The notes beneath the pieces are model-generated. The model did not search any database, had not been told where the DNA came from, and saw nothing but the letters and a program-made list of their open reading frames with translations. From Phycisphaerae bacterium (GTDB lineage Bacteria > Planctomycetota > Phycisphaerae > Phycisphaerales > Phycisphaeraceae): a DNA stretch of 64,000 nucleotides. Each line of letters begins with the position of its first letter. Position 1 is the first letter of the stretch. Position numbers and translations under genes: made by a program. Shown here piece by piece: positions 4,564 to 44,959 of the stretch. The stretch spans positions 186,001-250,000 of the forward strand of contig JAUHZU010000002.1 of assembly GCA_030425705.1 (NCBI GenBank), written 5' to 3'.

Positions 4564-5295
4564 ATGACCGCCGCCCCCGACCCCCTCCATCTCGCCAACG
4601 GCCGGAAGATCGGCTCCCGCTACGAGGTGCAGGGCCTGATCGGTGCCGGCTCGGAGGGTTCGGTCTACCGCGTCATGGACCCGGCCACGGGCATCCCCCG
4701 CGCCGCGAAGATCTTCCGGCCCGGCATCGACCCGCGCGCCCGCCGGTCCTCCCAGCACGCCCGCAAGCTCAACTCGCTGCGCCACTGCGCGATCGTCCTG
4801 CAGTACCTGCACAGCGAGACGGTCAACGTCCGCGGCCAGAAGCTCACCGCGATGATCTCCGAGCTGTGCGAGGGGGTACCGCTGCAGGTCTTCATCGACA
4901 GCCAGCCGGGCAAGCGCCTCCCGCCGTACATGGCGTTGCATGTCCTGGCGGCGCTGGTCGACGGGCTGGTCGAGGTGCACGACGCCGGCGAGTACCACGC
5001 GGACGTGCATACCGAGAACATCCTGATCCAGCCGCGCGGCGTGCGCTTCGACCTGAAGCTCATCGACTTCTACGAGTGGGGCCGGACGACCCGGGGCAAG
5101 CAGCAGCAGGACACGCTCGACTCCGTGCGTGTGCTGTACGACATGGTCGGCGGGCGGGCGCACTACGCCAAACAGCCCGAGCCGGTCCGGCACATCTGCG
5201 CGGGCCTGCAGCACAAGCGCATCCTCCAGCGCTTCCCCACGCTCCACGCCCTGAACGCCTACCTCGACAGCTTCGCGTGGGCGTCGATGCGGTAG
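4564..5295 (+). CDS. Protein kinase-like protein with altered DFG motif
   Basis: 243-aa protein with a eukaryotic-type kinase core. It has a glycine loop GAGSEGSV (27-34), VAIK-type lysine K49 (RAAKIF), catalytic loop HADVHTEN with D147 and N152, and D168 in LIDFYEWG, where the usual DFG glycine is Tyr. The C-lobe after the DFG position is short (about 75 residues). The start at 4564 was chosen because the glycine loop begins 26 residues later and upstream residues look non-coding. It may phosphorylate a protein or small molecule, or be a pseudokinase; catalytic residues are present except for the DFG change. No substrate or membrane segment is visible. Confidence 0.75.
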   Translation: MTAAPDPLHLANGRKIGSRYEVQGLIGAGSEGSVYRVMDPATGIPRAAKIFRPGIDPRARRSSQHARKLNSLRHCAIVLQYLHSETVNVRGQKLTAMISELCEGVPLQVFIDSQPGKRLPPYMALHVLAALVDGLVEVHDAGEYHADVHTENILIQPRGVRFDLKLIDFYEWGRTTRGKQQQDTLDSVRVLYDMVGGRAHYAKQPEPVRHICAGLQHKRILQRFPTLHALNAYLDSFAWASMR

Positions 5296-29914: not shown

Positions 29915-30979
29915 ATGACACGCACCTCCCCCCTCGTTCTCGCCGCCCTGCTGCTGGCCGGGTGCCACTCGGCCCCGACAGTTTCTGAAGTGACGCTGGT
30001 CAGCGACGCGGCGTCCGCCCCGACGGCCGCGCCGAACGATGGCGACGCCCGCGCCGCGGCGGTCGATCTCATCGCGTCGATGAACGACGCCCAGCGCGCC
30101 GCGACCGTCCTCGCGGTGGACCACGACGCGCACGCCGACTGGCACTACGTCCCCCGCCGCCGGCGCGGGCTGTCGATCGGCGACATGACCGAGGCGCAGC
30201 GACACGGCCTGCACCGCCTGCTCCAGCACGCGCTGTCGGATGTCGGCTACCTCAAGGCGATGGATATCGTCTGGCTCGAATCGGTGCTGCAGGAACTCGA
30301 GAACGGCAGCCCCGGCCGCGACCCCGGGCGGTACACGCTGCTGCTCTTCGGCGACCCGGCGGCCGCCGACGCCGCCTGGGGCTGGCGCTTCGAGGGTCAC
30401 CATCTGTCGCTGAACTTCACGTACACCGACCGGGGCGTGGTGACGACGCCGATGTTCATGGGCGCTTCGCCGGCCGTCGTGCCCCACGGCCTGCACGCGG
30501 GCAAACGTATCCTCGCGGACGAGCACCACCTCGCGTTCGCGTTGATCGCGTCGCTGACCGACGAGCAGCGGCAGGCGATGATGCTCGACCAGCGCCCGGG
30601 CGATGTCATCACCGGCCCCGGCCGGGAACGTGCGCTCCGCGAGCCGGCGGGCATCGCTTATCGCGACCTGAACGAGTCGCAGCAGGCGGCGCTGGTGGAC
30701 CTGATGATGGTCTACGCCGACCGGCTCACACGTGAAGACACGGAGCGTTTCGTCTGGCCGGTGCTCATCAGCCAGGGCATCCACTTCGCCTGGGCAGGAT
30801 CAACCAACCCCGACGAGCCGCACTACTACCGCATCTTCGCCCGTGACGAGTTTGTCATCGAGTACAACTGCCAGGACGGCGGGGTCAGCCATGTGCACGG
30901 CGTCATGCACGACCTGACCGATCCCTTGGCCGAGGACCTGCTGCGCCGCCACTTCGAGCAGCACCACGCCGGCGAGTAG
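29915..30979 (+). CDS. DUF3500 family lipoprotein
   Basis: 354-aa exported protein. The ATG at 29915 gives a lipoprotein signal ending in LLLAGC. The rest resembles DUF3500: LNDAQRAATVLAVDHDAHADWHYVPR in the N-terminal part, SIGDMTEAQRHGLHRLLQHALSDVGYLKAMDIVWLE, a GRDPGRYTLLLFG region, and the C-terminal HYYRIFARDEFVIEYNCQ with histidines in HVHGVMHDLTDP. The function of DUF3500 is unknown; it is frequent in planctomycete and related genomes. It is convergent with the zinc-ribbon gene, two bases away. Confidence 0.8.
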   Translation: MTRTSPLVLAALLLAGCHSAPTVSEVTLVSDAASAPTAAPNDGDARAAAVDLIASMNDAQRAATVLAVDHDAHADWHYVPRRRRGLSIGDMTEAQRHGLHRLLQHALSDVGYLKAMDIVWLESVLQELENGSPGRDPGRYTLLLFGDPAAADAAWGWRFEGHHLSLNFTYTDRGVVTTPMFMGASPAVVPHGLHAGKRILADEHHLAFALIASLTDEQRQAMMLDQRPGDVITGPGRERALREPAGIAYRDLNESQQAALVDLMMVYADRLTREDTERFVWPVLISQGIHFAWAGSTNPDEPHYYRIFARDEFVIEYNCQDGGVSHVHGVMHDLTDPLAEDLLRRHFEQHHAGE

Positions 30980-30981
30980 CT

Positions 30982-32130
30982 TTAGCTGAACGCGCCGAGC
31001 AGGACCAGGAGCCCGCAGGCCAGGCCCAGGAGGATGAGGACGAACCCCGTGATCTTCCAGAAGCTGTAGGGGCGGTGGCCCTTGACCTTGCCGGTGACCG
31101 CGTTGACCAGGAAGCGATAGACCTTGCCGTTGAACCGGTAGGCGCAGGACCACACGGGCAGCAGGATGTGCTTGAACGCGATGTTGTGGTACTGCGTGGT
31201 GACGCGGTGGATGCGTTGCTCGTCCCCGCCGATGTCGCGCTTCACCGCGTAGCGGATGTCCGGGGCCATCTTCTGTTGCGCCTGCGCGAAGCCCGGCTCG
31301 ACGCCGAGCTGGTACCGCTCGGCCAGGAACCCCGCGAGGTACGCGTCCTGGTAGGGCTGGAGCCGTTCCAGGTCCCAGGGCGTGAGCTTGTTCACCAGCG
31401 CCTCGGGAAGCGACCGCCCCGCCAGCACGAGCACATCGTCGAACGGCACGCTGACCCGGCCCGACGCGGGGTACCACCGCGTCTTGCGCACCCGGCGGGT
31501 CTTCATGACTTGCTGGCTGCGGGTCCGGCCGTGGCTGTCGGTGCGGGTCTCGGTGGTCCAGTAGGTCTCGTTGACCCAGTAGTGCTCGCCGCGCTGGCCG
31601 GTGTAGTCGCTGGTGGTGTGGGTGTCGTAGGTCCAGTACGGGATGTACACGCCCGTCAGCCGGTGGCCCGCGCGGGCGTCGCGCTTGAGCCGGCCGGGCG
31701 CGAACCATAGCCGGCGGACCCACCGGCGGAACGCGTCGCGGGCCTCCTGCTCGCCGAGGTGGAACGGCAGCACCGCCTCGGGCCGGAGCACGCGCTGGCT
31801 GATCTTCTCGTCGACGAGCCCGTAGCCGCAGAACGGGCAGGGCATCGCGTCCAGGTGCGGCGGCCGGTCGACCTGCGCGCCGCAGCCGCTGCAGCGCAGC
31901 GTCGGCGTGTTGATCGTGTCGTGGCGTTGGCGGAGCTGGGCAAGGGCCTGGAGGTAGTCGCGCTCTTCGACGGCCGAGTCGTCCGTGCCGGGCAGCGGGT
32001 TGTCGGTCCCGCAGTAGTCGCAGGTGAGCCCGTGCGTACCGGGCGTGTACGCCAACCCCGCGCCGCAGGATCGGCACGGGAACGAGCTGACGCCGCCGGG
32101 CGCGGTCGGGCTATTCGTCGGCTTGGCCAT
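30982..32130 (-). CDS. Zinc-ribbon membrane protein of unknown function
   Basis: 382-aa protein. It begins with two zinc ribbons: CRSCG with CDYCG, and CSGCG with CPFCG. A middle domain follows with RRLWFAPGRLKRDA and a VYIPYWTYDTHTTSDYTGQRG segment, then ILLPVWSCAYRFNGKVYRFLVNAVTGKVKG and a C-terminal hydrophobic hairpin (WKITGFVLILLGLACGLLVLL). This layout is known in proteins often misnamed as replication-restart or DNA-helicase related; no helicase motif is present here. It overlaps argH by 20 bp on the same strand, so the two are probably expressed together. Confidence 0.72.
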   Translation of the reverse strand: MAKPTNSPTAPGGVSSFPCRSCGAGLAYTPGTHGLTCDYCGTDNPLPGTDDSAVEERDYLQALAQLRQRHDTINTPTLRCSGCGAQVDRPPHLDAMPCPFCGYGLVDEKISQRVLRPEAVLPFHLGEQEARDAFRRWVRRLWFAPGRLKRDARAGHRLTGVYIPYWTYDTHTTSDYTGQRGEHYWVNETYWTTETRTDSHGRTRSQQVMKTRRVRKTRWYPASGRVSVPFDDVLVLAGRSLPEALVNKLTPWDLERLQPYQDAYLAGFLAERYQLGVEPGFAQAQQKMAPDIRYAVKRDIGGDEQRIHRVTTQYHNIAFKHILLPVWSCAYRFNGKVYRFLVNAVTGKVKGHRPYSFWKITGFVLILLGLACGLLVLLGAFS

Positions 32131-33568
32131 CCGTCGGTTGATCCCCCAGGCGCTCCTTCCACGCCGCGAGCTGCTGCTCGAACCCGCTCACCCCCGCGTT
32201 GCCGGCACTCTGGTAACGCTTCACCACGTTCGCCGGCCCGAGCCAGTCAAACACGTCGGCACCCACCGCACCGGCGCTCCGGTACTCGGCGCACACCGCG
32301 TTCATCTCGTCGACCGTGAGCTGCTCGAGCTTGTATCGGCCGGTGGTGTTGCACAGCCCGACGAGCCGGCCGACGACCTGGTGCGACGTACGGAACGGCA
32401 CGCCCTTGGTCACGAGGTACTCCGCCAGCGAGGTCGCGTCGAGGTAGCCGCGGTCGAGGCCCTGCTTGATCCGGTCTTCGTTGAATGTGACGGTCTTGAC
32501 GATGCCCGTGGCCATGTCGAGGCAGTCGCACACCGCGTCGTAGGCGGCGAAGAGGTGGCGCTTGTCCTCCTGCAGGTCGCGGTTGTAGCCGACGGTAAGC
32601 CCCTTGCACATGGTGAGCAGGGCCACGAGCGAGCCGTAGACCTGGCCGGTCTTGCCGCGGATGAGCTCGAGCATGTCCGGGTTCTGCTTCTGCGGCATCA
32701 TCGACGACCCGGTCGTGTAGGTGTCGGCGATCGTGATGAACCCGAACTCCGTCGTCGCGTAGATGATCCACTGCTCCGCCCAACGCGAGAGCCACATGGA
32801 GGTCATGGTGAGGGCGTAGCAGAAGTCGAGCGCCGCGTCGCGCGAGGCGGTCGCGTCGATCGAGTTTTCTGATGGCGGCCCGGCCATGGGCAGTTCCATC
32901 GCCGTGAAGTCGCGGTCTAGTGGGAGGCTACTCCCCGCGATCGCGCCGCTCCCAAGCGGGCAGGCGCTGTTTCCGGCGTTGACGTTCAGTGAATTGAGGC
33001 GCGTCGCGGCGCGATCGAGCGATGCAAGCCAAGCCATGACTTCGCCGCCGAGCACGATCGGTTGTGCACGCTGCAGGTGCGTGTAGGACGGCATGACAAT
33101 GTGCCCATCCTTCTCCGCCAACGAAACAAATGCTTCACAGAGCGTGTCGATCTGGTCCAGGATTTGTTCTTCGGCGGCATCGACCCACAGCATAAGGTCC
33201 GTTGCCACCTGATCGTTCCGACTCCGCCCGGTATGCAGCTTCCGGCCCGCGTCGCCCGCCTTCTCGATCAGGGCGGCTTCGATGCACATGTGGACATCTT
33301 CCAGCTCAACCTTCCAGCCGGGCCAGGCATCGCCCTGCTCGGCGATCTCTGCTTCGATGGCGTCGAGCCCGGCGTTGATCGCGCTCAGGTCGTCGTCGGT
33401 GATGAGCCCGACCTTGCACAGCATCGCGGCGTGGGCCTTGGACCCGCGGATGTCGTGGGTGTACAGCCGCTTGTCGTAGTCCAGCGACGCGACGAACCGC
33501 GCGGCCAGAGGGTCGCCCTCGCTGCCCGACGATTTCGCGTGTTCCCAGGGCTTGTGTGTACTGCTCAT
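32111..33568 (-). CDS. argH: Argininosuccinate lyase
   Basis: 485-aa member of the fumarase/aspartase superfamily that releases arginine and fumarate from argininosuccinate. Signatures are DVHMCIEAAL, THLQRAQPIVLG, the flexible-loop motif GSSMMPQKQNPD (287-298) containing the catalytic serine, and GYNRDLQEDKR. Length is normal. The segment at about 32870-33300 (residues about 90-233) has lower third-position GC than the rest, hinting at recombination within the gene. No other arg genes are in the window, so it is not in an arg operon. Confidence 0.95.
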   Translation of the reverse strand: MSSTHKPWEHAKSSGSEGDPLAARFVASLDYDKRLYTHDIRGSKAHAAMLCKVGLITDDDLSAINAGLDAIEAEIAEQGDAWPGWKVELEDVHMCIEAALIEKAGDAGRKLHTGRSRNDQVATDLMLWVDAAEEQILDQIDTLCEAFVSLAEKDGHIVMPSYTHLQRAQPIVLGGEVMAWLASLDRAATRLNSLNVNAGNSACPLGSGAIAGSSLPLDRDFTAMELPMAGPPSENSIDATASRDAALDFCYALTMTSMWLSRWAEQWIIYATTEFGFITIADTYTTGSSMMPQKQNPDMLELIRGKTGQVYGSLVALLTMCKGLTVGYNRDLQEDKRHLFAAYDAVCDCLDMATGIVKTVTFNEDRIKQGLDRGYLDATSLAEYLVTKGVPFRTSHQVVGRLVGLCNTTGRYKLEQLTVDEMNAVCAEYRSAGAVGADVFDWLGPANVVKRYQSAGNAGVSGFEQQLAAWKERLGDQPTDGQADE

Positions 33569-33693
33569 CGCGGCAGTGTATCGGAGGAGCGAGCAGCGAG
33601 GCGCGACGAGAACCCGCGGTGTTGCTGTCGCAGCACCGCGGGCATGGGGTTCCTGTGTTTCTCGCCCCCCGATCCCCGCGCCTCACGCCTGCC

Positions 33694-34953
33694 CTAGAAC
33701 GGCAGGTCGTCGTCGCCGTTGTCGTCGGGTTCGTCCTCTTCGCCGAAGGGGTGCTGCTTGGCGTCGTAGCCGTCCCACTCGGTGTGGGGGAGGAAGGTGT
33801 CTTCGCCGAGCAGCTCGTCGGTGGTGGCCTCGCCGAAGACCTCGTCGGGTGTGGCGCGGTGGTGGACGCGGATGATGCGGGCGAGGGTCTCGCCCATAAC
33901 GTCGGCGACGGTGCGGCAGGCCTCTTCGAGCCCGTCGGGGAACGGCTGGTTCTCGTCGCGGAACAGGGCGACCACGGCGAGGGGCTCGTCGTCGGCGACG
34001 CAGGCGAAGGTGATCAGCCGGCTGTCGGCGAGGTAGTGCCAGTCGTCGCCCATGAGCACCTGCATCGCGGCGTTGTCGCGGACGTGCACGAGCTGGTCGT
34101 GCTCGCCGATGCGCGGGGCGAGGACGTCGGCCAGGTGCTGCAGCAGCATGTCGGCCGACTCCTTGGGGCAGTCGTAGTTCACGTAGCCGCCCAGCGAGTA
34201 CTCGTCCATGCTCGCGGGCAGGAAGATCGCGGCGTTGCACGGGCCGGCCTTGCCGACCAGGTGCTCGAGGGTCTTGCGGAGGACGGTCTCCAGGTCCAGC
34301 TCGCCGTCGATGATCGCGGTGAAGCCGGAGGCCTGCACGGCGTCCTGCATCTGCACGGCCAGCTCCTGGTAGGCGGTGACCAGGTCGTTGCAGAGGATGT
34401 CGACCTGGTCGGAGACTTCGGCGCGGGCGGCGTCCAGCCGCTTGCAGAGCTTCTTGAGCCGGCGGATGTGGCGCTGCTGCTCGTGGGCCTGGTCGCGGCG
34501 GGTGAGCGCGGCGCGGACACGGTCGGCCAGGAGCGCGGCGTCGATGAGTTCGGCCGCGCCGCTCTGCTTCACCAGGAAGTCGCTCGCCCCGGCGCGCATC
34601 GCGTGCTGGGCCAGCTCGAAGCGGTCCGAACCGGAGACGACCAGCGCCTGCGTGACGGACGTGCCGGCGGTGAGTTCTTTGGCGAAGTCCAGCCCGTTGC
34701 CGTCGCCCAGGTCCGGGTCGATGAGGGCGACGTCGACCGGCCCCTCGGCGTGGAGGAGGACGCGGGCCTCGGCGATCGAGCCGGCGTAGAGGACGGTGGC
34801 GGGCACGTCCGCGCAGCGCTCCAGCGGGGTGCGGAGCGCGGGGTCGCGGTCGACCAGCAGGAGCTTGGGCGGCTGGGCCTGGGTCGGGGGCTGGGGCTTG
34901 CCGGCCTGGCGTTCCACGCCGTGGGCCGGGCGGTTGTCGCGTGCGTCGCTCAC
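33694..34953 (-). CDS. Response regulator with coiled coil and GAF-like domain
   Basis: 419-aa signalling protein. The GTG start at 34953 has AGAGGAGAG upstream. Residues about 29-160 are a receiver domain: LLLVDRDP, the phospho-acceptor region VALIDPDLGDGNGLDF and GASDFLVKQSG. A coiled coil follows (HIRRLKKLCKRLDAARAEVSDQVD), then a GAF-like sensor (GFTAIIDGELDLETVLRKTLEHLV to LAVVALFRDENQPF) and an acidic tail. No DNA-binding or enzymatic output is visible. It lies downstream of a histidine kinase on the same strand and is the first element of the signalling block. Confidence 0.8.
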   Translation of the reverse strand: MSDARDNRPAHGVERQAGKPQPPTQAQPPKLLLVDRDPALRTPLERCADVPATVLYAGSIAEARVLLHAEGPVDVALIDPDLGDGNGLDFAKELTAGTSVTQALVVSGSDRFELAQHAMRAGASDFLVKQSGAAELIDAALLADRVRAALTRRDQAHEQQRHIRRLKKLCKRLDAARAEVSDQVDILCNDLVTAYQELAVQMQDAVQASGFTAIIDGELDLETVLRKTLEHLVGKAGPCNAAIFLPASMDEYSLGGYVNYDCPKESADMLLQHLADVLAPRIGEHDQLVHVRDNAAMQVLMGDDWHYLADSRLITFACVADDEPLAVVALFRDENQPFPDGLEEACRTVADVMGETLARIIRVHHRATPDEVFGEATTDELLGEDTFLPHTEWDGYDAKQHPFGEEDEPDDNGDDDLPF

Positions 34954-35167
34954 GAAGTCTCTCCTCTGGGTGTGCCCGTTCTCCGCCGGGCGCTGCTGAT
35001 CCAGAGGGGGTATCGACGGTGGTCGCGGGCCGGTGAAGCGTGCGGCGGGGGTTTTTGGGGCGGCCCGATTGGCCATGCCGGATGAGCGGGATACGGGCTT
35101 ATGGGGCGTGCGCTGGGCGGCGCAGGCGGTACAACCGGGCGGGGTGGTGGCGCGGTCAAACAACGAT

Positions 35168-35196
35168 CCCACGGCGTCGCGGTGCAACGCCGCGGG
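35168..35196 (-). terminator. Possible weak terminator between kinase and regulator genes
   Basis: Hairpin with a 10-bp stem (35168-35177 with 35187-35196; one G-U pair) and a 9-nt loop, about 55 nt after the stop of the HDOD kinase gene. On the minus strand it is followed by a short imperfect U-run. May attenuate read-through into the GAF regulator. Confidence 0.4.
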
Positions 35197-35250
35197 CTTG
35201 CGTTTGTGCGGAATGTGCTTGCCTGTTGTGCCCCGCTCCGAGCGCGTTAT

Positions 35251-37548
35251 CTACGACGCGTTGCCGCGGAGGGGCAGCGTCAGCGAGGCGGTGGTGCCGA
35301 CGCCGGGCGTGGAGTGCAGGTCGATGCGTCCGCCGTGGGCGATGGCGAGCTGCTGGGCGCGGGGCAGGCCCATGCCGACCTGTCGGCCGGCGGGCTTCGC
35401 GCTAAAGAACGGGTCGAAGGCGTGGCTGGCGGTGCGCTCGTCCATGCCGTCGCCGTCGTCGATGACCTGGACGACGATGGACTCGGTATCGTGCTCGACC
35501 TGCGCGGCGATGTTGACCGCGGAGCGTGGGTTGGACTGCAAGGCGTTGACGATCAGCTCGGTGAGGATGCGGGCGACCAGCGGCGCGTCGCAGTTGACCA
35601 CGGGCAGCTCGTGCTTGATCGAGAGGTAGATCTCGGCGGTACGTTCGCGCTTGGACCGGCCGAGCTTCACCTTGCGGACGACCTCGTCGAGCAGCGCGAG
35701 CATGTCGACGGGCCGGCACTCGGCCTTGGGCGGGTCGGCGAAGAGGTGCAGCCCGGTGATGAGGTCGCTGAGGCGGTGGGCCTCCTGGAAGATGAGCTGG
35801 GCGTTCTGCTGGTCCTTGCTGCCGGTGGGCAGCGCGAGGGTGAGCAGCTGCGACCGGCCGGAGATCACGGCCAGGGGGTTGTTCATCTCGTGGGCCGCGC
35901 CCGACGCCATCTCGCCCAGGCGGGCGAGCGATTCCTGCCGGAGCAGCCGGTCCTGCGCCGCGGCGAGGGCGGCGGAGGTCTGCGCGAGCTCTTCGCTGAG
36001 CTGGCGGGCGCCCTCGAACTGCGCGGCGGCGGCGACGGCCGAGCCCCACGCCCCGACCAGCGGCTGCATCATGACCCACGACGGCAGCTTCTCCCGGTCG
36101 TGCATCAGGATCGCCGCGGTCCCCCACCCGCTGGGCAGGGGCAGCATCTGCACCCGGCGGAGGTCGTCGGCGCCGACGAGGTGGTCCGCCAGCCAGGGCA
36201 TCAGCCCCGCCAGGGTCATGCCGATCGGCTGGGTCGCGTCCATCTTTGTCAGGTCCGGCGCGTGCGGCGGCGGGTCGATGCACTCGAAGTGCGAGCCGCG
36301 CGCCTCAGCCGGGGCGTGGCCCAGCAGCCATTGGGTGTTGTTCTGCTCGTCCCGGGTCGGGTACAGCACGGCGTAGAAGCCCGAGCCGAGCAGGCCCGTC
36401 GCCGACCGCATCACCCGCTCGAGGACGTCCTGCACGCCCAGGCCCGGCTCGTCGCCGGCGTGGAACGCCTGCACCGCCTGCATCACCTGCTGCTGCAGCG
36501 CGACCTGCCAGCCGCGCTGTTCGAGCTGCTGGTTCAGCCGGCCCAGCGCCTCGTTGGCCTTCTGTACCGACTGCATCAGCAGCTCGCGCGAGGGCACCTC
36601 GTGCAGCCCGAGCATCGCGCCTCGCGTCTCCAGCTCGTCGTAGAGCCGGTCGGTCGCGGCGGACACCAGCGCCGGGTCCAGCCCGAGCTGCGCGGCCAAC
36701 TCGTCGGGGCGCTGCTTGAACGCGTGGTTGCCCGAGAAGCCGATGAGCTGCCGGCGGACGATCGTGTCGGCCAGGGTGATGAGCCCGATCATCCGGCGGT
36801 GTTCGAGCTTGGGCAGCGTCTCGAACGCGCTGCCGTGCAGCCAGAGGCAGTCCTGCAGCATGTGCGGCAGCCCCCACTGCTCGGCCAGCCGTTTGCCGGC
36901 CGTGTGGTGGTCCAACCCGATGACCCGGCGTTCGTACTCGGCGACATCACCCTGCCGCAGCTTCGCGGCCTCGATCACCCGTGCGTAGCTGCGCGGCAGG
37001 ACCAGATCCAGCGCGAGCTTGCCCATGTCGTGCAGGAGCCCGCAGACAAACGCCTCCTCGGGCACCAGGTCCTTGTGGTCGGGGTGCAGCTTGGCGATCA
37101 GCTCGGCGACTATGGCGACGGCCAGGGAGTGCGACCAGAAGCCGGCCCGGTCGAACGGCTCGGGTTCCGCGCCGCGGGCCGTGTCGCCAGAGAGCCGGCC
37201 GGCCGCGGTGGTCAGCGGCACCTGGTCCTCGCGCTTGGCGTCGAAGAGCTCGAAGAGCTTGAGCGACAGTACCGCGTTGCGGATCGCCTGGAAGCCCAGC
37301 AGCTTGACGGCGTGCTCGACGGTGAGGACGTTGCGGACGCCCTTGTCGGCGGTCTTGCACAGCGACAGGACCTTGGCGGTCAACGCCGGGTCGGCGGCGA
37401 CCATCTGCACGACCTCGCGGGTGTGCGCGTCGTCGCTGGCGGTGAGCTGGAGCAGGCGCGTGGCCACCGCCGGCAGCGTCGGGAGCGAGTCGATCTGCCG
37501 GAGGATCAGTTCGATGCGGCGCGGCTTGGACAGCTCGGCAGAGACCAT
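35251..37548 (-). CDS. HDOD/HD-domain histidine kinase fusion
   Basis: 765-aa cytosolic fusion. Residues about 12-265 form an HDOD domain with HD signature H173-D174 in CGLLHDMGK and HHTAGKRLAEQW. A helical linker leads to a GAF-like sensor (about 350-510). The kinase part has the HisKA box H553 in ASGAAHEMNNPLAVIS, N668 in ELIVNALQSN, DDGDGM and GMGLPRA, so the catalytic residues are intact. HDOD usually occurs with diguanylate cyclase or phosphodiesterase outputs; fusion to a soluble histidine kinase is less common. It starts right after a phased heptamer repeat. Probably partners the GAF regulator downstream or the HTH regulator upstream. Confidence 0.85.
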   Translation of the reverse strand: MVSAELSKPRRIELILRQIDSLPTLPAVATRLLQLTASDDAHTREVVQMVAADPALTAKVLSLCKTADKGVRNVLTVEHAVKLLGFQAIRNAVLSLKLFELFDAKREDQVPLTTAAGRLSGDTARGAEPEPFDRAGFWSHSLAVAIVAELIAKLHPDHKDLVPEEAFVCGLLHDMGKLALDLVLPRSYARVIEAAKLRQGDVAEYERRVIGLDHHTAGKRLAEQWGLPHMLQDCLWLHGSAFETLPKLEHRRMIGLITLADTIVRRQLIGFSGNHAFKQRPDELAAQLGLDPALVSAATDRLYDELETRGAMLGLHEVPSRELLMQSVQKANEALGRLNQQLEQRGWQVALQQQVMQAVQAFHAGDEPGLGVQDVLERVMRSATGLLGSGFYAVLYPTRDEQNNTQWLLGHAPAEARGSHFECIDPPPHAPDLTKMDATQPIGMTLAGLMPWLADHLVGADDLRRVQMLPLPSGWGTAAILMHDREKLPSWVMMQPLVGAWGSAVAAAAQFEGARQLSEELAQTSAALAAAQDRLLRQESLARLGEMASGAAHEMNNPLAVISGRSQLLTLALPTGSKDQQNAQLIFQEAHRLSDLITGLHLFADPPKAECRPVDMLALLDEVVRKVKLGRSKRERTAEIYLSIKHELPVVNCDAPLVARILTELIVNALQSNPRSAVNIAAQVEHDTESIVVQVIDDGDGMDERTASHAFDPFFSAKPAGRQVGMGLPRAQQLAIAHGGRIDLHSTPGVGTTASLTLPLRGNAS

Positions 37549-37584
37549 AGGGAACAGGCCTGGGGGTCAGGGGCCAAGGGGGAA
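37549..37584 (-). repeat. Phased GGG/CCC heptamer repeat upstream of the HDOD kinase
   Basis: On the minus strand five consecutive 7-nt units ending mostly in CCC precede the ATG at 37548 with a single T between. Units are more degenerate than at atpD, but the phase is exact. Assigned to the same repeat class with lower confidence. Confidence 0.5.
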
Positions 37585-37621
37585 CCGGCGTCCGGTTGCC
37601 TGCCCGCGGGCCCCTCGGGGG

Positions 37622-38251
37622 TCACGCTTCCAGGAGGTTGTCGATCTGCTCCATCAGCTTCTGCACATCAAACGGCTTCTTCACGAACGCGTCGGCCCCG
37701 GCCTTGAGCAGACCGTCGATCTCGTGCTGGTCGACCACGCCGGACACGATGAGGATGCGCATGGCCTGGAGGTCCTGGTTCTCGCGGACGGTCTTGCAGA
37801 CCACGTTGCCGTTGACGTCCGGGAGCATGAAGTCCAGGACCATGAGGTCGGGCTTGAACTCCGCGGAGACGATGCCCGCGTCGTAGCCTGTGCTCGCGGT
37901 GCGGACCTCGAAGCGGTCGTCGCGGGAGAGGACATCCTGCATCAGGTCGACGATCTGCGGGTCGTCGTCGACGACGAGGACCTTCTTGCGGCCGTGCGCG
38001 AAGTCCTCGGTGGGGATATCGTTGTTCTTCATGAACCGGATCAGCTCTTCGCGGGGGATCCGGCGGAAGCGGGAGCCGGGCACGCGGAAGCCCTTGAGCC
38101 GGCCGGCGTCGAAACAGCGGATGATGGTCTGCTGGGAGACCTTGCAGACCTCGGCGGCCTCGCCGGTGGTGAAGACCTGCTTCTCGAACAGGTCGCTCTT
38201 GCCGTTCTTGCCGTTCTTTTCGGGATGGGAGGTGCCGTTGTTGGCGCTCAT
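37622..38251 (-). CDS. Response regulator with excisionase-type HTH N-terminus
   Basis: 209-aa regulator. Residues about 25-77 are an excisionase/MerR-type winged HTH (FTTGEAAEVCKVSQQTIIRCFDAG, then GFRVPGSRFRRIPREEL). A receiver follows at about 89-209 with acidic D95-D97, phospho-acceptor D140 (LMVLDFMLPDVNG) and K191 (AFVKKPFD). In most response regulators the DNA-binding domain is C-terminal, so the order is inverted. It lies 73 bp upstream of the HDOD kinase on the same strand, consistent with a cognate pair, and diverges from the FHA kinase. Confidence 0.9.
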   Translation of the reverse strand: MSANNGTSHPEKNGKNGKSDLFEKQVFTTGEAAEVCKVSQQTIIRCFDAGRLKGFRVPGSRFRRIPREELIRFMKNNDIPTEDFAHGRKKVLVVDDDPQIVDLMQDVLSRDDRFEVRTASTGYDAGIVSAEFKPDLMVLDFMLPDVNGNVVCKTVRENQDLQAMRILIVSGVVDQHEIDGLLKAGADAFVKKPFDVQKLMEQIDNLLEA

Positions 38252-38506
38252 AGCGTGTCCCCTGATCGCGGGCTCGTCGGGGGCGTCGTGGCGTAAACCC
38301 TGTCTGATCCTAGGGTTCGGCGCATACGTCGCCGGCCAAACTTGCCCAGTTTGTCCATCTTTACATCGGGGGCCCGGACAACCGACTTAAGGCCATCGGG
38401 CGGGTCTTGACGATTTCCCGGGCTGGGGTATCCCTTGGGGGTGGGTCGGCCGGCGATACAGCCCGAACGCCGGCCGGACTAGAATTGTGGCCAGCATCGC
38501 GCACCC
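38252..38506. promoter_or_regulatory. Divergent intergenic region between two signalling genes
   Basis: 255 bp separating the divergently transcribed HTH regulator (minus) and FHA kinase (plus). Both must have promoters here. The HTH regulator could control both; no clear palindromic operator or consensus promoter stood out to me. Confidence 0.4.
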
Positions 38507-40186
38507 GTGGAGACCCGCTTGCTTGTACTCAACGTCATCCAGGGACCGGACAAAGGGATGCGGATCACCCTGCCCGACGACGAGCCCCAGCTCATCGGCC
38601 GGTCGTCCGAGGCGATCGTGCTCAGCGACCAGACCATCTCCCGCCGGCACGCCGAACTCACCCCCGAGGGCGACGGGACGTGGTACATCCGCGACCTGCA
38701 GTCCGCCAACGGCACGTTCATCAACGGTGTCCGTGCCACCACCGAACGCCGAAAGCTCAAGCTCGGCGACCAGGTCCGCACCGGCAACACGCTGCTGATC
38801 TACGGCGAGAACGTCCGCAACCCGCTGGCGAACCGGCTCAAGCTCGCCCCGGCCGACGAGATGGACGTGTCGTTCGAGCGCACCATCGACGCGAACGACG
38901 AGTCGATGATCATGTCGTCGCCCGAGCCGTCCCAGGCCGCGCAGTTCCAGCTCCAGATCGTCTACGAGTTGGTTGCGCTAATCGGGTCGGTGACGAACAA
39001 GCAGCAGCTCCTCGAGAAGGTGATGGACGTGGTCTTCGAGTACTTCTCGGCCGACCGCGCGTTCCTGCTGCTGTGCGAACACCCGCTGGACGAGCCCGAG
39101 CCCGCGGTCCTGCGGTTCCGGGAGGACGAGGACACGCTGCCCGATCCCAACCGGCCGGCAACGATCAGCCGGACGATCGTGCACTACGTCCTGGAGCGCG
39201 GCGTCGCGGTGCTCTCCAGCAACGCGATGAGCGACACCCGGTTTACCTCCGGCGACTCGGTCCAGGCGTACGGCATCCGCTCGGCGATGTGCGTGCCCAT
39301 CGTGCACAAGGACAAGTACTACGGCGTGATCCACCTCGACTCGCAGATCGCCAACTACACCTTTACCGAGGACCAGCTCTCCCTGCTCACCGCGATCGGC
39401 GTGCAGACCGGGCTCGCGCTGGACAACGCCCGCCTGCTCGAGCAGCGCGTGCAGGAAGAACGTCTCGCCGCGATGGGCCAGACCATCGCGTCGCTCAGCC
39501 ACTCGATCAAGAACATCCTCCAGGGCATGCGCGGCGGGTCGGACCTCGTCGAGCTGGGGCTGCGCAAGAAGAACCCCGACGCGCTGCGGCAGGGCTGGGA
39601 GATCGTGCAGCGCAACCAGGACAAGATCTTCGCGCTGACACTGAACATGCTCCAGTACAGCAAGCAGCGCCAGCCGGAGCTGGAGATGTGCCAACTCGGG
39701 CCGATGTTCGAGGACCTGGTCGCGCTGGTGCAGGGCCGGTACGACGCGAAGCGGGTCGCGCTAATCGTCGACATGGAGCCGGGCCTGCCGCCCGTGCCGA
39801 TGGAGCAGTCGGGCATGCACCAGGCGGTGCTGAACCTGCTGCACAATGCGTTGGACGCCTGCGAGTCGGAGACGGGCGCGGTAACGCTGTCCTGCCGGCT
39901 GGACCCGCTGGACCACGAGGTGAAGATCAGCGTCGCAGACAACGGCATCGGCATGAACCGGGCCCAGCGGATGCAGCTCTTCACGCCGTTCCAGTCGACC
40001 AAGGGCTATGGCGGGACCGGGCTGGGGCTAGTGGTTACCAAGAAGATCGTCGAGGAGCACGGCGGCGAGATCGACGTGCAGTCCAAGGCCAAGAAGGGCA
40101 CGACCTTCACCATCTCCCTGCCCACGGAGATGCGGGGCGCCCCGGCCGAGACCCACGCCCCGGCGTCGAGCAAGTGGCGTTTCTAG
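38507..40186 (+). CDS. FHA-GAF histidine kinase
   Basis: 559-aa soluble sensor kinase starting at a GTG. Residues about 6-100 are an FHA domain with GRS (31-33), SRRHAE (45-50) and NGT (68-70), which bind phosphothreonine peptides in known FHA proteins. A GAF domain spans about 150-310. The kinase core has the phospho-acceptor H332 in IASLSHSIKNILQGM, NLLHNALDA, DNGIGM and GTGLGL. An FHA domain on a histidine kinase couples Ser/Thr phosphorylation to His-Asp signalling. Kinase-like genes elsewhere in the window are not adjacent. Divergent from the HTH response regulator, its most likely partner. Confidence 0.9.
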   Translation: METRLLVLNVIQGPDKGMRITLPDDEPQLIGRSSEAIVLSDQTISRRHAELTPEGDGTWYIRDLQSANGTFINGVRATTERRKLKLGDQVRTGNTLLIYGENVRNPLANRLKLAPADEMDVSFERTIDANDESMIMSSPEPSQAAQFQLQIVYELVALIGSVTNKQQLLEKVMDVVFEYFSADRAFLLLCEHPLDEPEPAVLRFREDEDTLPDPNRPATISRTIVHYVLERGVAVLSSNAMSDTRFTSGDSVQAYGIRSAMCVPIVHKDKYYGVIHLDSQIANYTFTEDQLSLLTAIGVQTGLALDNARLLEQRVQEERLAAMGQTIASLSHSIKNILQGMRGGSDLVELGLRKKNPDALRQGWEIVQRNQDKIFALTLNMLQYSKQRQPELEMCQLGPMFEDLVALVQGRYDAKRVALIVDMEPGLPPVPMEQSGMHQAVLNLLHNALDACESETGAVTLSCRLDPLDHEVKISVADNGIGMNRAQRMQLFTPFQSTKGYGGTGLGLVVTKKIVEEHGGEIDVQSKAKKGTTFTISLPTEMRGAPAETHAPASSKWRF

Positions 40187-40273
40187 CCGCGAACGCTCAG
40201 GCCCCATCCGCCGATCGGGCAATAGGGCCTTGCCCTTAGGCGTCTTGCATGTACCCCCTGCCGAGGCCACGCC

Positions 40274-41764
40274 ATGCCCCCGACGACCTCCCTCCGACCG
40301 ATCCGCCCGAGCGCGTTCACCCCCGCTAAGGCGTGGCACCTTCAGGCCCGCGCGGGGTTCGGCGGGTCGGCCCAGGCGCTGCGCGACCTGCATGCGCTGG
40401 GCCTCGACGCCGCGGTGGACCGCGTGGTGAACTACCAGCAGGTCCCCGCCGACCACCTGCCTGCCGCGGACACCGACCCGGACACGATCCGCCCGAACAC
40501 CCCCGAGGAGCGCCAGGAGCTGCTGCGGGCCCGGCGTGAAGGCGACCAGGAGGCGATCGACCGGTACCGCCGGGACCGCAACGCCGCCCGGGCCGAGGAC
40601 CGCCGGATGCACCTGGGGCTGCAGGCCTGGTGGCTGGAGCGGATGGTGGCCACGCCCCGCCCCGCGGAGGAAAAACTCACACTGCTCTGGCACAGCCACT
40701 TCGCGACCCGGCACCGGGACATCCGCGACAGCTACCTGATGCAGCAGCAGAACGACCTGTTCCGCACGCACGCCAACGGCTCGTTCGCCGACCTCGCCGC
40801 GGGCATTGTCCGCGACCCCGCGATGATCCGGTTCCTCAACAACGACCGCAACAACGCGCGCCGGCCCAACGAAAACCTCGCCCGCGAACTCATGGAGCTG
40901 TTCACCCTCGGCGAGGGCAACTACACCGAGCAGGACATCCGCGAGGGCGCCCGCGCCCTGACCGGCTACACCGCGCAGGACAACGACTTCCGCTTCAACC
41001 GCAACGCCCACGACCAGGGCCGCAAGCAGATCCTCGGCCAGGAGGGCGCGTGGGACGGGGACGACTTCGTCCGGCTGCTGCTGCGGCAGGAGGCCTGCGC
41101 CCGGTTCGTCGCGCTCAAGCTCTACCGCCACTTCGTCGCCGATGTCTCGGACGACTGGGACCTGTTGTCCACCGAGACCCGGCAGGTCGTGGACGCGTTG
41201 GCCGGGCGGCTGCGCCGCTCGGGGTACGAGCTGTCGCCGGTGCTGGTGACGCTGTTCAAGAGCGAGCACTTTTATGATGCGCAGATCGTCGGGCGGAAGA
41301 TCAAGAGCCCGGTCCAACTGATCGCGGGGACCGCCCGGTCGCTCGAAGCGCCGGAGCGTGACGCGCGGGCGCTGGCGGGCACGCTGCGGGCGATGGGCCA
41401 GGACCTCTTCGAGCCGCCGAGCGTCGCCGGCTGGGACGGCGGCCGGGCGTGGATCAACACGTCGACGCTGCTGATGCGGCAGAACACCTGCGCGTACCTG
41501 GTCACCGGCAAGACCACGCGTGGCCGACGCAACCAGCAGGGCGAGCCCGTCGATACCGAGGCGCTGCTGACCGGGCTGGATCGCCCGACACCGCGGCGGG
41601 TCGTCGACCACCTTTGCGACACGCTGCTGGGCCCGCACGTCTCGGCCGAACGCCGCGACCCGCTGTACCGCTACATGCAGGAGCGCCGCGTCGGCGTCAC
41701 GAACGAGACCGTCCTCGGGCTGCTGCTGCTCATCACCGCGATGCCGGACTACCAACTCTGCTAG
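40274..41764 (+). CDS. DUF1800 family protein
   Basis: 496-aa protein with the typical DUF1800 order: AWHLQARAGFGGS, RMHLGLQAWWLERMVATPRPAEEKLTLLWHSHFATR, NENLARELMELFTLGEGNYTEQDIREGARALTGY, KLYRHFV and PPSVAGWDGGRAWIN. The family is almost always followed by a DUF1501 gene, as here after 30 bp. The function is unknown; the pair is abundant in planctomycetes and is thought to act in the envelope or in handling of extracellular material. No convincing signal peptide is seen. Confidence 0.92.
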   Translation: MPPTTSLRPIRPSAFTPAKAWHLQARAGFGGSAQALRDLHALGLDAAVDRVVNYQQVPADHLPAADTDPDTIRPNTPEERQELLRARREGDQEAIDRYRRDRNAARAEDRRMHLGLQAWWLERMVATPRPAEEKLTLLWHSHFATRHRDIRDSYLMQQQNDLFRTHANGSFADLAAGIVRDPAMIRFLNNDRNNARRPNENLARELMELFTLGEGNYTEQDIREGARALTGYTAQDNDFRFNRNAHDQGRKQILGQEGAWDGDDFVRLLLRQEACARFVALKLYRHFVADVSDDWDLLSTETRQVVDALAGRLRRSGYELSPVLVTLFKSEHFYDAQIVGRKIKSPVQLIAGTARSLEAPERDARALAGTLRAMGQDLFEPPSVAGWDGGRAWINTSTLLMRQNTCAYLVTGKTTRGRRNQQGEPVDTEALLTGLDRPTPRRVVDHLCDTLLGPHVSAERRDPLYRYMQERRVGVTNETVLGLLLLITAMPDYQLC

Positions 41765-41794
41765 AGACCAAGCCCCCGCCACGGGATTTTCGCC

Positions 41795-43123
41795 ATGTGC
41801 AACCACTACCACCCGCTGAGCACGAACACACCGACCCGCCTCGGGCTGCCGCACACCCGCCGACAGTTCCTCGGCCGGCTGGGGCTCATCTCCGCCGCCG
41901 CCACCCTGCCGGGGTTTGTGGACCGCTCGGCCTTCGCGGCGACGGACACCGACTGGTACACCAAGGACCGGCCGGGCGTGCCCGACGAGCGTGTGCTCGT
42001 GGTCGTGCAGCTCTCGGGCGGCAATGATGGCATGAACTGCGTCGTGCCCGTCGGCGAGGACGCGTACTACCGCGGCCGGCCCGCGCTGGCGATCCGCGAG
42101 GACGACACCCTGCCGATCGGCGTGGACGGGCTCGCGCTCAACCCGCAGATGCGCGGCATCCAGCAGCTCATCCGGTCCGGCCGGGGCGCCGTGGTCAACG
42201 GCGTGGGCTACCCCAACCCCAACCGGTCGCACTTCAAGTCCATGGATATCTGGCACTCGGCGAAGACCGAGGAGCGCGACATGCGCGGCCGGGGGTGGGT
42301 CGGCAACGCGATGGACACCGCCTACCCGCTGGACCGGCACGGCAACGCGCCCGAGGCCGCGGGGATGGCCACCGTCGCGCTGGGCAACGACGCGCCGATG
42401 GCGACGCAGGGCGCGCACGTCAAGCCCGTCACCTTCGAGACGCCCGAGGCGTTCCGCTGGATCCCGCGCGACGTCCACCGCACGCTGTCGGACGCCTACG
42501 ACTCGCTCCACGACAGCGCGGCTCGGCCCGAGGTCGCGCCCGACGACCCACTGGCGTTCGTGTACCGCACGGCGTGCGATGCGCAGGCGGCGTCCGGCCG
42601 GGTGCGCGACGCCGTCGCGCGCGGCTCGGAGACCCGCTTCCCCAACAACCCGCTGGCGCGTCAGCTCGAGATGGTCGCGAAGATGATCGCCGCCGAGCTG
42701 CCCACCCGCGTCTACTACGTCACGCTCGGCGGGTTCGACACGCACGCCCAGCAGCTGGGCCGGCACAACGGGCTGCTCGGCCAGTTCAGCCAGGCGATGA
42801 AGGCGTTCTACGACGAGCTCGACGCGACCGGGCAGGCCGGGCGGGTCGTGAGTCTCGCGTTCAGCGAGTTCGGGAGGCGCGTCCGCCAGAACGCCTCGGG
42901 CGGCACGGACCACGGCGTGGCCGGCCCGTCGTTCGTCTTCGGCGACGCGGTGAACGCCGGCGTCCTCGGGCGGTACCCGTCGCTGACCGACCTGGACAAC
43001 GGCGACCTCAAGCACACCACCGACTTCCGCGGGCTCTACGCCGACCTGCTCGACAACTGGATGCGGATCGACGCCCGCGCCGCGCTCGGCGGCCGGTTCG
43101 ATCACGTCGGGCTGTTCGGCTGA
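41795..43123 (+). CDS. DUF1501 family protein with Tat-type signal
   Basis: 442-aa sulfatase-fold-like exported protein. The N-terminus has a twin-arginine motif RRQFLGRLGLISAAATLPGF, indicating Tat export. Family signatures are VLVVVQLSGGNDGMNCVVP, the SHFKSMDIWHSAK region, TLGGFDTHAQQ and VVSLAFSEFGRRVRQN with GTDHGVAGPSFVFG, suggesting an alkaline-phosphatase-like metal centre (D/H in GGFDTHAQQ and TDHG). Forms a two-gene unit with the DUF1800 gene upstream. Substrate unknown. Confidence 0.93.
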   Translation: MCNHYHPLSTNTPTRLGLPHTRRQFLGRLGLISAAATLPGFVDRSAFAATDTDWYTKDRPGVPDERVLVVVQLSGGNDGMNCVVPVGEDAYYRGRPALAIREDDTLPIGVDGLALNPQMRGIQQLIRSGRGAVVNGVGYPNPNRSHFKSMDIWHSAKTEERDMRGRGWVGNAMDTAYPLDRHGNAPEAAGMATVALGNDAPMATQGAHVKPVTFETPEAFRWIPRDVHRTLSDAYDSLHDSAARPEVAPDDPLAFVYRTACDAQAASGRVRDAVARGSETRFPNNPLARQLEMVAKMIAAELPTRVYYVTLGGFDTHAQQLGRHNGLLGQFSQAMKAFYDELDATGQAGRVVSLAFSEFGRRVRQNASGGTDHGVAGPSFVFGDAVNAGVLGRYPSLTDLDNGDLKHTTDFRGLYADLLDNWMRIDARAALGGRFDHVGLFG

Positions 43124-43174
43124 TCGGCCGTGAGGCAGGCACCCTGCCTGTCGGTAGGCAGCAAGCGGCCGCGC

Positions 43175-44959
43175 TTACGCCTGCCAGTCGATGCCCTGCT
43201 CGCGCGAGAGCGCGTGGAACACGCCGCCCTGTGCGTCGACCTCGGCGATGGGGCCCTGCTCGACAACCCGGCCCTGGTCCATCACGAACACGCGGTCGCA
43301 CCCGGCGATCGTCGATAGCCGGTGCGCGACGATGATGATGGTCAGTTCGCCGGGGAGCGCGTCGATCGCCTCGCGGACCTGCCGCTCGGAGATGCTGTCG
43401 AGCGCGCTGGTCGCCTCGTCGAAGATGAGCACTTGCCGGCGGTTGGCCAGGGCACGGGCGATGGCGACGCGCTGCCGCTGGCCGCCGGACAGCCGGGTCC
43501 CGCGGTCGCCGACGGGCGTGTCCAGCCCGGCCGGCAGGTCGTCGAGGAACGCGCCGACCCGCGCGGCGTCCGCGGCGCGGCGGACGTCCGCGTCGCTGAG
43601 GGAGTCGTCGCCGAAGCGGATGTTCTCGCCCACCGTGGCGCTGAGCAGGAACGCCTCCTGCGGCACGACGCCGAACAGCGAACGCCAGGCGGCCGTCGCC
43701 GCGTCGGTGCTTGGCAGCCCGTCGATGCAGACCCGGCCCACGCGCGGCACGTGGAACTTCAGCAGCAGGTCCACGAGCGTCGACTTGCCCGACCCGCTGG
43801 GACCGACGACCGCGACCCGCTCGCCCCGTCGGATGGTCAGGTCGACGTCCCGCAGCGCGAACGACTCGCCCGCGTCGTGCGCGAACGCGACGTGTTGCAG
43901 CGTGATCGCCTCGCGGAACGGCACGTCCGTGACCGGGCCGTCGGGCACGCGGTGGTCCTCGCCCCGCTGGAGGAACGCGACGATCTCCAGTGTCGTCGGG
44001 TAGGTGACGGCGACCTGCGAACGGATCGCGATGAGCTGCTGCGCGTAGCTGAGCGTGCGGGCGACGATGACGAAGAACGTGACGAAGAGCAGCACCGTCG
44101 AGCGCTGCGGGCCGTAGACGAGGATGAAGCCCATGAGGATGAGCGCGAGCCCGGCGTGCGCGAGCGTCGCGACGAGGCCGGGCGTCATGTTCATGAGGAT
44201 GTAGCGTCGGCGGAGCACGTGGTTGAGGGTGAGGAACGCGTCCCACAGCCGGCCGCGGAAGACGCGCTCGCGGGAGAACGCGGCGATCGCGCGGAAGCCG
44301 TTGAGCGTGTCGAGCGTCTCGAAGTTGACCTGCTTGACCTGCTCTTTCTGTTCGCGTCCGGTGCGGGCCTGGGCGCGGTGCAGCCCGCGGAGCAGGAGGT
44401 AGACGCAGGCGAACAGCCCGAGGGCCATGGCCGTGCCCGCGGGGCTGATGAGCAGCGAGGCGGTGCCCAGGAGCAGCAGGCCGAACAGCGCGGGCAGCGG
44501 GCCGACGATGCTCGCGAAGACCTCGCCGGCGTTGTTGCTGTGCGGGCCGAGGTAGGTGTGCAGGTCCGACAGCCGGTACCGCTGCACCGCCGCGAGGTCC
44601 ATGGAGAACAGCTTGTCGAGCACGGCCTTCTTGATGTGCATGTTGACCAGCAGGTGCAGCTTCGTCAGCAGGACCGCGTACACCAGCCGGCCGACGAACG
44701 CGACGACGGCCAGCACCAGGATCGCGCCCGCGAGCACCCAGAGCTTGCGCTCCAGGCCTATGCCGTCGAACAGCGCCTGCCACTCCGCGAGCACGCCGGG
44801 GAGAGAGGCCGCGCTGCCCGGCTCCAGCAGCGACGCGAGCACCGGCAGCACCATGCCCACCGACAACAGCTCGGCCAACGGCAGCACTCCCGCGACGAGC
44901 ACCAGCGCGAGCGACAACCCCTTGTGCCGCAGCAGGACCTCAGCGAACAGGTAACGCAT
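43175..44959 (-). CDS. ABC transporter, fused permease and ATPase (lipid/glycan exporter type)
   Basis: 594-aa half-transporter of the MsbA/PglK-like group. The N-terminal half has about six transmembrane helices (residues 10-320). The ATPase has Walker A GPSGSGKST (386-394), the signature LSGGQ (490-494), Walker B LIFDEAT (511-517) and the H-loop in IIVAHRLST. Expected to dimerise and flip a lipid-linked sugar or export a small molecule. It lies 82 bp downstream of the asparagine synthetase in glycan-type operon 2, so lipid-linked glycan export is the favoured role. Confidence 0.92.
   Translation of the reverse strand: MRYLFAEVLLRHKGLSLALVLVAGVLPLAELLSVGMVLPVLASLLEPGSAASLPGVLAEWQALFDGIGLERKLWVLAGAILVLAVVAFVGRLVYAVLLTKLHLLVNMHIKKAVLDKLFSMDLAAVQRYRLSDLHTYLGPHSNNAGEVFASIVGPLPALFGLLLLGTASLLISPAGTAMALGLFACVYLLLRGLHRAQARTGREQKEQVKQVNFETLDTLNGFRAIAAFSRERVFRGRLWDAFLTLNHVLRRRYILMNMTPGLVATLAHAGLALILMGFILVYGPQRSTVLLFVTFFVIVARTLSYAQQLIAIRSQVAVTYPTTLEIVAFLQRGEDHRVPDGPVTDVPFREAITLQHVAFAHDAGESFALRDVDLTIRRGERVAVVGPSGSGKSTLVDLLLKFHVPRVGRVCIDGLPSTDAATAAWRSLFGVVPQEAFLLSATVGENIRFGDDSLSDADVRRAADAARVGAFLDDLPAGLDTPVGDRGTRLSGGQRQRVAIARALANRRQVLIFDEATSALDSISERQVREAIDALPGELTIIIVAHRLSTIAGCDRVFVMDQGRVVEQGPIAEVDAQGGVFHALSREQGIDWQA

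Follow-up and report, generated by a model that had tools for sequence, protein, structure and literature searches.

The block of signalling genes at positions 33694-40186 lies in a window of 64,000 nucleotides, the whole stretch of DNA analysed here, from contig JAUHZU010000002.1 of a Phycisphaerae bacterium (family Phycisphaeraceae). It features a response regulator in which a winged helix precedes a receiver (HTH-REC), a soluble histidine kinase with an HDOD domain (HDOD kinase), a protein in which a receiver, a long helix and a GAF-like domain follow one another (REC-GAF), and a histidine kinase with FHA and GAF domains (FHA kinase). All four open reading frames (ORFs) called by a first-pass annotation made from the letters alone are real and stand where it placed them (Table 1). 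Pfam matches quoted below are above the gathering score unless stated otherwise, and an Rfam scan of 30900-43200 gave no match. Two of the alignments were made with some loci excluded, A3 without L070, L098 and L106, and A4 without L076, L087 and L088. The block is read, with moderate confidence, as a conserved planctomycete two-component operon that would be autoregulated through a receiver-controlled BldC-like protein, with the FHA kinase loosely attached to it.

Table 1. Features of the signalling block and its flanks, in positions of the window
Feature	Position	Strand	Basis or remark
REC-GAF (REC-long helix-GAF protein)	33694-35187	(-)	ORF, Pfam, AlphaFold model
HDOD kinase, HDOD-(GAF-like)-HisKA-HATPase, soluble	35251-37548	(-)	ORF, Pfam, structure model
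HTH-REC, N-terminal HTH_17 winged helix and C-terminal receiver	37622-38251	(-)	ORF, Pfam
FHA-GAF-histidine kinase	38507-40186	(+)	ORF, Pfam, alignment
Promoter-like element TTAAGTCG-N12-CCCGATGT	38363-38390	(-)	5' of HTH-REC; conserved pattern
Putative operator, three 9-bp direct repeats AAGATGGAC AAACTGGGC AAGTTTGGC	38335-38361	(-)	Directly downstream of the promoter-like element
ETHAP (T549), C-terminal to the HATPase domain of the FHA kinase	40148-40162	(+)	Candidate FHA ligand if phosphorylated
argH, which we take to encode argininosuccinate lyase	32111-33568	(-)	Conserved within the family beside the FHA kinase
Zinc-ribbon gene, named from its cysteine pattern	30982-32130	(-)	Marks one inversion breakpoint; divergent from HTH-REC in the congener G001

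HTH-REC matches HTH_17 over residues 27-77 (E = 2.2e-10) and REC (E = 9.4e-22), which bears out the earlier description of an excisionase-type HTH ahead of a receiver. The protein is a two-component response regulator that features the acidic pair (D95 in 26/26 and D96 in 25/26 aligned copies), the phosphoacceptor aspartate (D140, 26/26), the Ser/Thr residue (S170, 25/26) and the lysine (K192, 26/26). The alignment, A1, consists of the window copy and 25 of 39 loci, and L101 was removed because the coordinates first used for it contained a stop. R45 of the winged helix is invariant in the 26 copies. Additionally, the HTH is the best conserved of eight regions compared in 18 sequences, with a mean identity of 0.86 against 0.67 for the receiver and 0.65 for argH, as a fixed DNA target would require. 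The HDOD kinase matches HDOD (E = 9.6e-43), HisKA and HATPase. The first-pass annotation had a soluble kinase fused to HDOD/HD, and the fusion stands with a single HDOD domain, because the HD match overlaps HDOD. The protein is a histidine kinase with an H-box histidine (H553, 37/37 aligned copies), an N box (N668, 37/37) and a G1 aspartate (D698, 34/37). Its structure model features a middle alpha/beta region, about residues 372-490, in which the order of helices and strands suits GAF. Foldseek did not single out GAF for this region among the 50 matches listed, and a middle GAF domain is a reading of the model rather than a result.

The two proteins travel together. The neighbourhood survey covered the window genome and 60 relatives, in which all four proteins were searched; presence was set at a minimum of 52% identity for HTH-REC and at E ≤ 1e-60 for the HDOD kinase. 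Both proteins were found in 51 of the 61 genomes, HTH-REC alone in one (G049), the kinase alone in none, and neither in nine, three of which are incomplete assemblies. In 45 of the 51 genomes with both, the genes lie within 1 kb of each other on the same strand, and the HDOD kinase and REC-GAF are within 1.5 kb in 47/50 genomes. The 24 genomes of other families contain HTH-REC in 18 cases, the HDOD kinase in 17 and the FHA kinase in 17; HTH-REC adjoins the HDOD kinase in 11/17 of them and the HDOD kinase adjoins REC-GAF in 17/17. On named contigs the HDOD kinase is found no more than 2.5 kb downstream of HTH-REC at 71 of the 77 loci with room for it (3 of 80 lacked the room), and REC-GAF comes next at 40 of these 71. 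At the nine loci from outside the class (L258-L265, L267), HTH-REC is in every case followed by a protein that matches the HDOD kinase in part. Co-occurrence and adjacency indicate that the HDOD kinase is probably the cognate kinase of HTH-REC. Two observations tell against this pairing: the genes are apart in 6/51 genomes, and G023, counted among the genomes with neither, has pieces of the HDOD kinase at a contig end. G049 (row L084), where HTH-REC occurs without the kinase, speaks for the pairing: S170 and D96 are altered there and the loop after the aspartate is rewritten.

The region 5' of HTH-REC features a conserved site in which a promoter-like element is followed by the repeats. Three sets of upstream regions, numbering 40, 80 and 10, were compared; the first two overlap in species, and 9 of the 10 come from outside the class. 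Self-similarity determined with no motif model is highest at lag 9 among lags 5-16, with a mean z of 1.44 (40 regions), 1.04 (80) and 1.39 (10), and the other lags reach at most 0.54 in all three sets. A three-repeat score of at least 12 of 15 is reached by 16/40 and 25/80 regions, compared with 0/200 shuffles. The pattern AAGT-N16-CGAT, picked after inspecting the regions, is present in 31/40 and 53/80 of them, and any other spacing occurs at most twice. At 19/80 loci the promoter is instead TTGACA-N14-20-TTAA ahead of similar repeats (0.2 in shuffles), and because the repeats persist there, they are taken to be an operator rather than a component of one promoter type. A wider regulon was considered and not kept: the genome has a single match to the -10-like element with two repeats when as many as 3 mismatches are allowed; the repeats alone were not searched genome-wide. 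The upstream region of G049 contains no operator scoring above shuffles.

Several results weigh against the site. Taken singly, only 12/40, 12/80 and 4/10 regions score as high at lag 9 as the top one of 60 shuffles. The promoter anchor is absent in 8/40 regions, and 10/40 do not beat shuffles for the full element, though the consensus came from the same set. Lag 9 is also found upstream of the FHA kinase (1.0), argH (0.77), the HDOD kinase (0.5) and REC-GAF (0.31). For these genes it is mostly accompanied by lags 6 and 12, a pattern given by coding sequence; the FHA kinase, for which lag 9 exceeded every other lag, is an unexplained exception. Its 48 upstream regions have z > 2 in 7 cases and an operator score never above 11 of 15, and no clear operator site was found in them.

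The promoter-like element resembles sigma-28/WhiG promoters, for which the consensus is TAAA-N15-GCCGATAA-like; the spacing and CGAT of TTAAGTCG-N12-CCCGATGT fit it. TIGR02479 is matched in 61/61 genomes, above the cut-off in 58. Attribution to sigma-28 was rejected and only the resemblance kept, since 28/29 flagellin upstream regions do not exceed shuffles; the set comprises 30 loci fetched of about 100 matches, less one that was not oriented, and only L125 (10 of 11) beat all its shuffles. A sigma-28-like pattern in the own genome gave 4 matches and a control 3. Part of the flagellin loci have a feature of their own: just ahead of the gene, a perfect stem, GACAATC-AAGGAG-GATTGTC or, with a paired change, GACAAAC-AAGGAG-GTTTGTC, carries the ribosome-binding site in its loop. 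A stem of at least 5 bp with GGA in the loop was counted at 17/29 loci, and 14 are of the perfect-stem type (L113, L116, L118-L121, L123, L126, L127, L129, L130, L132, L136, L139). A stem with the ribosome-binding site in its loop looks like a CsrA-type site.

The winged helix and the repeats recall BldC of Streptomyces. Each BldC subunit covers 9 bp of a direct repeat with the consensus AATTXXXX(C), and Arg30 reads a C-G pair, according to excerpts of the BldC study (PMC5859096). The BldC entries 6amk (E = 0.18) and 6ama (E = 0.44) are two of the five PDB matches of the winged helix, and from the printed alignment we align R45 of HTH-REC with Arg30. The repeats in the window have AA at the start and C at position 9. 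The likeness covers a MerR-like/HTH_17 winged helix, a recognition arginine and 9-bp direct repeats with an A/T-rich start. In contrast, BldC as described in the same excerpts is a stand-alone 68-residue protein, whereas HTH-REC has its winged helix fused to an intact receiver. Because of this C-terminal fusion HTH-REC is not filed as a member of the BldC family and is only likely to work like one. The comparison is weakened on two counts. The BldC match is weak, and a cobalamin-binding regulator scores better (E = 0.019). Additionally, the C at position 9 is not conserved among relatives, being present in only 14, 6 and 9 of 32 anchored regions for the three repeats; the features that do recur are an initial AA and a G at positions 6-7. 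By analogy with BldC, we infer that HTH-REC binds the 9-bp repeats at its own promoter. Binding by another regulator, either a single-domain BldC-like protein or a paralogue of HTH-REC, is improbable. A paralogue of about 35-45% identity does exist in most of the 61 genomes (own-genome copy G000:C16:374760-375308) and would supply such a binder, but its upstream regions in two genomes contain no clear repeat site, scoring 9 and 8 of 15, and most of the 40 regions 5' of HTH-REC contain the site. At two loci with the kinase located elsewhere, L078 and L083, a weaker form of the site is all that is seen by eye beside HTH-REC.

REC-GAF had been described as a regulator with a receiver, a coiled coil and a GAF domain. 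Pfam confirms the receiver (E = 4.8e-12), whereas the coiled coil and GAF have no Pfam match and appear in the AlphaFold model as a single 77-residue helix and a GAF-like domain (mean predicted local distance difference test, pLDDT, 88). The GAF structure 5w10 is among the Foldseek matches of this model. The phosphoacceptor aspartate is kept in 13/38 aligned copies and absent in 25/38, therefore the domain appears to be mostly a pseudo-receiver; the window copy, which retains the aspartate, speaks against this. The GAF-like part and the helix are better conserved than the receiver. The start codon is uncertain, as most fetched orthologues have 350-430 residues. The C terminus, as a separate observation, is AA in 14/40 fetched copies (L072, L074, L076, L077, L081, L082, L086, L092, L094, L098, L253, L254, L256, L257), often as GGLAA or GGMAA, counted by eye, and the window copy ends in DDDLPF. 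AA-type C termini resemble ssrA-type degradation tags. With the aspartate-less receivers described in excerpts of PMC4395418, REC-GAF shares the absence of the aspartate in most copies; it differs in that one long helix joins its receiver to a GAF-like domain and in that the window copy has the aspartate.

The FHA kinase matches FHA (E = 2.4e-18), GAF (E = 1.9e-15) and HATPase. It had been called a divergent kinase with an FHA domain; the FHA domain is present, the divergence is confined to HisKA (24.0 bits, under the Pfam cut-off of 26.9), and the GAF domain had gone unmentioned. No variation is seen at H332, N336, N447, D478-N479-G480 and G503-L508 among 18 aligned copies (alignment A2, the window copy and 17 of 48 loci), and the protein is a histidine kinase by its H-box histidine, N box and G boxes. 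FHA domains bind phosphothreonine through a motif of GR, S-x-x-H and N-G residues. The corresponding G31 R32 S33, S45 R46 R47 H48, N68 G69 T70 and N73 G74 are invariant in the 18 copies, and the own genome has 14 Pkinase matches, 13 of them over the Pfam cut-off and two of the 13 in one frame. These residues and matches make the proposed input from Ser/Thr phosphorylation into His-Asp signalling plausible. One partial Pkinase (Hanks kinase) match lies in the window itself at 4621-5070 (+), G000:C16:190621-191070, in a 344-residue frame, with 50.9 bits over profile positions 1-142 of 263.

EspA of Myxococcus carries an FHA domain. It has been linked with the Ser/Thr kinase PktA5, according to excerpts of PMC4320627, and the idea of Ser/Thr input into His-Asp signalling is not new in kind. 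The kinase core resembles EspA/EspC of Myxococcus xanthus (NF052573, E = 8.5e-30, with 103 bits where the cut-off is 1400), and the Ser/Thr kinase link to PktA5 (PMC4320627, excerpts) is a second likeness. EspA, a hybrid kinase, contains a receiver of its own, whereas the planctomycete FHA-GAF kinase has no receiver and features a C-terminal threonine motif.

The strict form of this motif is present in 38/48 tails of the FHA kinase, compared with 14.1 in shuffles and 4/40 tails of the HDOD kinase; the loose form, [DEA]T, is present in 46/48, compared with 26.0 in shuffles and 10/40. The HDOD kinase tails are shorter (mean 12.7 residues against 26.3), and both patterns were composed after the tails had been viewed, with L085 (wrong match) and L257 (contig end) excluded. 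Among ten kinases taken from other families (L268-L277), it is weak or missing. The conserved threonine, typically in SADTHGP or DPSET, may be the kinase's own FHA ligand, which would be phosphorylated by Hanks kinases; the phosphorylated tail would then fold onto an FHA domain, either that of its own subunit or that of the partner, and switch the kinase. GarA and OdhI of Actinobacteria are FHA proteins that have no kinase domain and carry their ligand threonine at the N-terminus. The FHA kinase is like them in having an FHA domain and a threonine in a short tail able to bind it once phosphorylated, and unlike them in having a kinase domain and a C-terminal threonine. A second conserved stretch lies in the linker, at about residues 125-145, with the consensus VExTVxxNDDSxIMASPEP; its threonine could also be an FHA ligand and is absent in some aligned rows. 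That a phosphorylation-gated, BldC-like regulator of its own promoter in at least two planctomycete classes and a histidine kinase bearing its own FHA ligand, two mechanisms of which no earlier description was found, are both real is a tentative proposal and rather unlikely to hold as a whole.

The connection of the FHA kinase to the other genes is confined to one family. With the window counted in, there are 37 family genomes; 33 of them have both HTH-REC and the FHA kinase, and in 20 the two lie no more than 10 kb apart. At 18 family loci (L089-L106) and in G032 (L257), HTH-REC, HDOD kinase, REC-GAF, argH and FHA kinase follow one another on one strand. Of 51 loci on named contigs that leave 8 kb of room, 7 have the FHA kinase within 9 kb after HTH-REC. 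In other families the two are near each other in 0/17 genomes with both. Conservation of the four-gene neighbourhood had been proposed as a check on the block; it applies to the HTH-REC and HDOD kinase core, and for the FHA kinase it is partial within the family and fails elsewhere. A single four-gene pathway is not borne out either, as it is argH that steadily accompanies the FHA kinase within the family. Where the FHA kinase is unlinked from HTH-REC, argH adjoins it at 8/10 family loci (none at L228; L235 is cut by a contig end), while the loci fetched from outside the family have no argH beside it. Some of the unlinked cases may reflect contig ends, given that a number of family genomes are fragmentary. 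The pattern inside and outside the family suggests two units, the triad and the argH-FHA kinase pair, joined in one family. The kinase is followed in the window, at 40274-43123 (+), and in several family genomes by a pair of genes that are presumably DUF1800 and DUF1501.

The divergent orientation of the FHA kinase gene belongs to the window. The genes HTH-REC through argH form a segment that is inverted compared with the congener G001; its breakpoints are at 32110-32151 and 38371-38509, and the zinc-ribbon gene and the FHA kinase flank it. The divergent arrangement is therefore a local change or an assembly error and not the common design. A programmed switch was considered and rejected, as neither breakpoint showed a conspicuous inverted repeat, leaving an ordinary inversion or an assembly error.

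The pathway of the first-pass annotation, a four-protein relay in which HTH-REC takes input from the FHA kinase as well as the HDOD kinase and Ser/Thr and HDOD signals thereby converge, is doubtful but keeps some weight. The linkage in 20 of the 33 family genomes with both genes speaks for it, as does a sample of 294 genomes of the phylum (cut-offs E ≤ 1e-55 for HTH-REC and E ≤ 1e-70 for the FHA kinase) in which 39 have HTH-REC, 48 the FHA kinase and 34 both. The same sample counts 14 genomes with the FHA kinase and no HTH-REC and 5 of the reverse at these cut-offs, and the separation of the two in all 17 other-family genomes and the lack of an operator 5' of the FHA kinase argue against the relay. 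Covariation points both ways: in 18 sequences, and beyond argH, the receiver covaries with the FHA kinase core (partial r 0.27) about as much as with the HDOD kinase core (0.30), but the two kinase cores do not covary (partial r -0.04, a weak test). Domain covariation, determined with L101 and L257 excluded, is too weak to assign partners. It is very improbable that the genes stand together by chance or only for the expression of argH, with unrelated jobs. The FHA kinase does sit beside this metabolic gene even where the triad is distant; against this, HTH-REC and the HDOD kinase occur together across the class and partly outside it, with a shared upstream site.

In the operon reading preferred here, the soluble HDOD kinase would sense a cytoplasmic signal and phosphorylate the receiver of HTH-REC. 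HTH-REC would bind head to tail, in the manner of BldC, to the 9-bp repeats just downstream of the -10-like element, a site recognized by its conservation. Occupancy of the repeats would most likely block RNA polymerase, and phosphorylation would relieve or strengthen this autorepression. REC-GAF may serve as an accessory subunit rather than as a regular phosphate acceptor. The FHA-GAF kinase is predicted to be conserved and independent, with phosphothreonine tuning it by way of the FHA domain; together with argH it would have become linked to the operon in one family. Searches of the open-access literature, judged by title and abstract, found no description of the operon, of a receiver-fused BldC-like regulator or of a planctomycete FHA-GAF kinase, and such absence is no proof of novelty. 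If the reading is true, planctomycetes would gain a testable two-component operon with a defined operator, and the DNA-binding mode of BldC would extend to a receiver-controlled regulator. Additionally, a concrete peptide would be named by which Ser/Thr kinases could control a histidine kinase.

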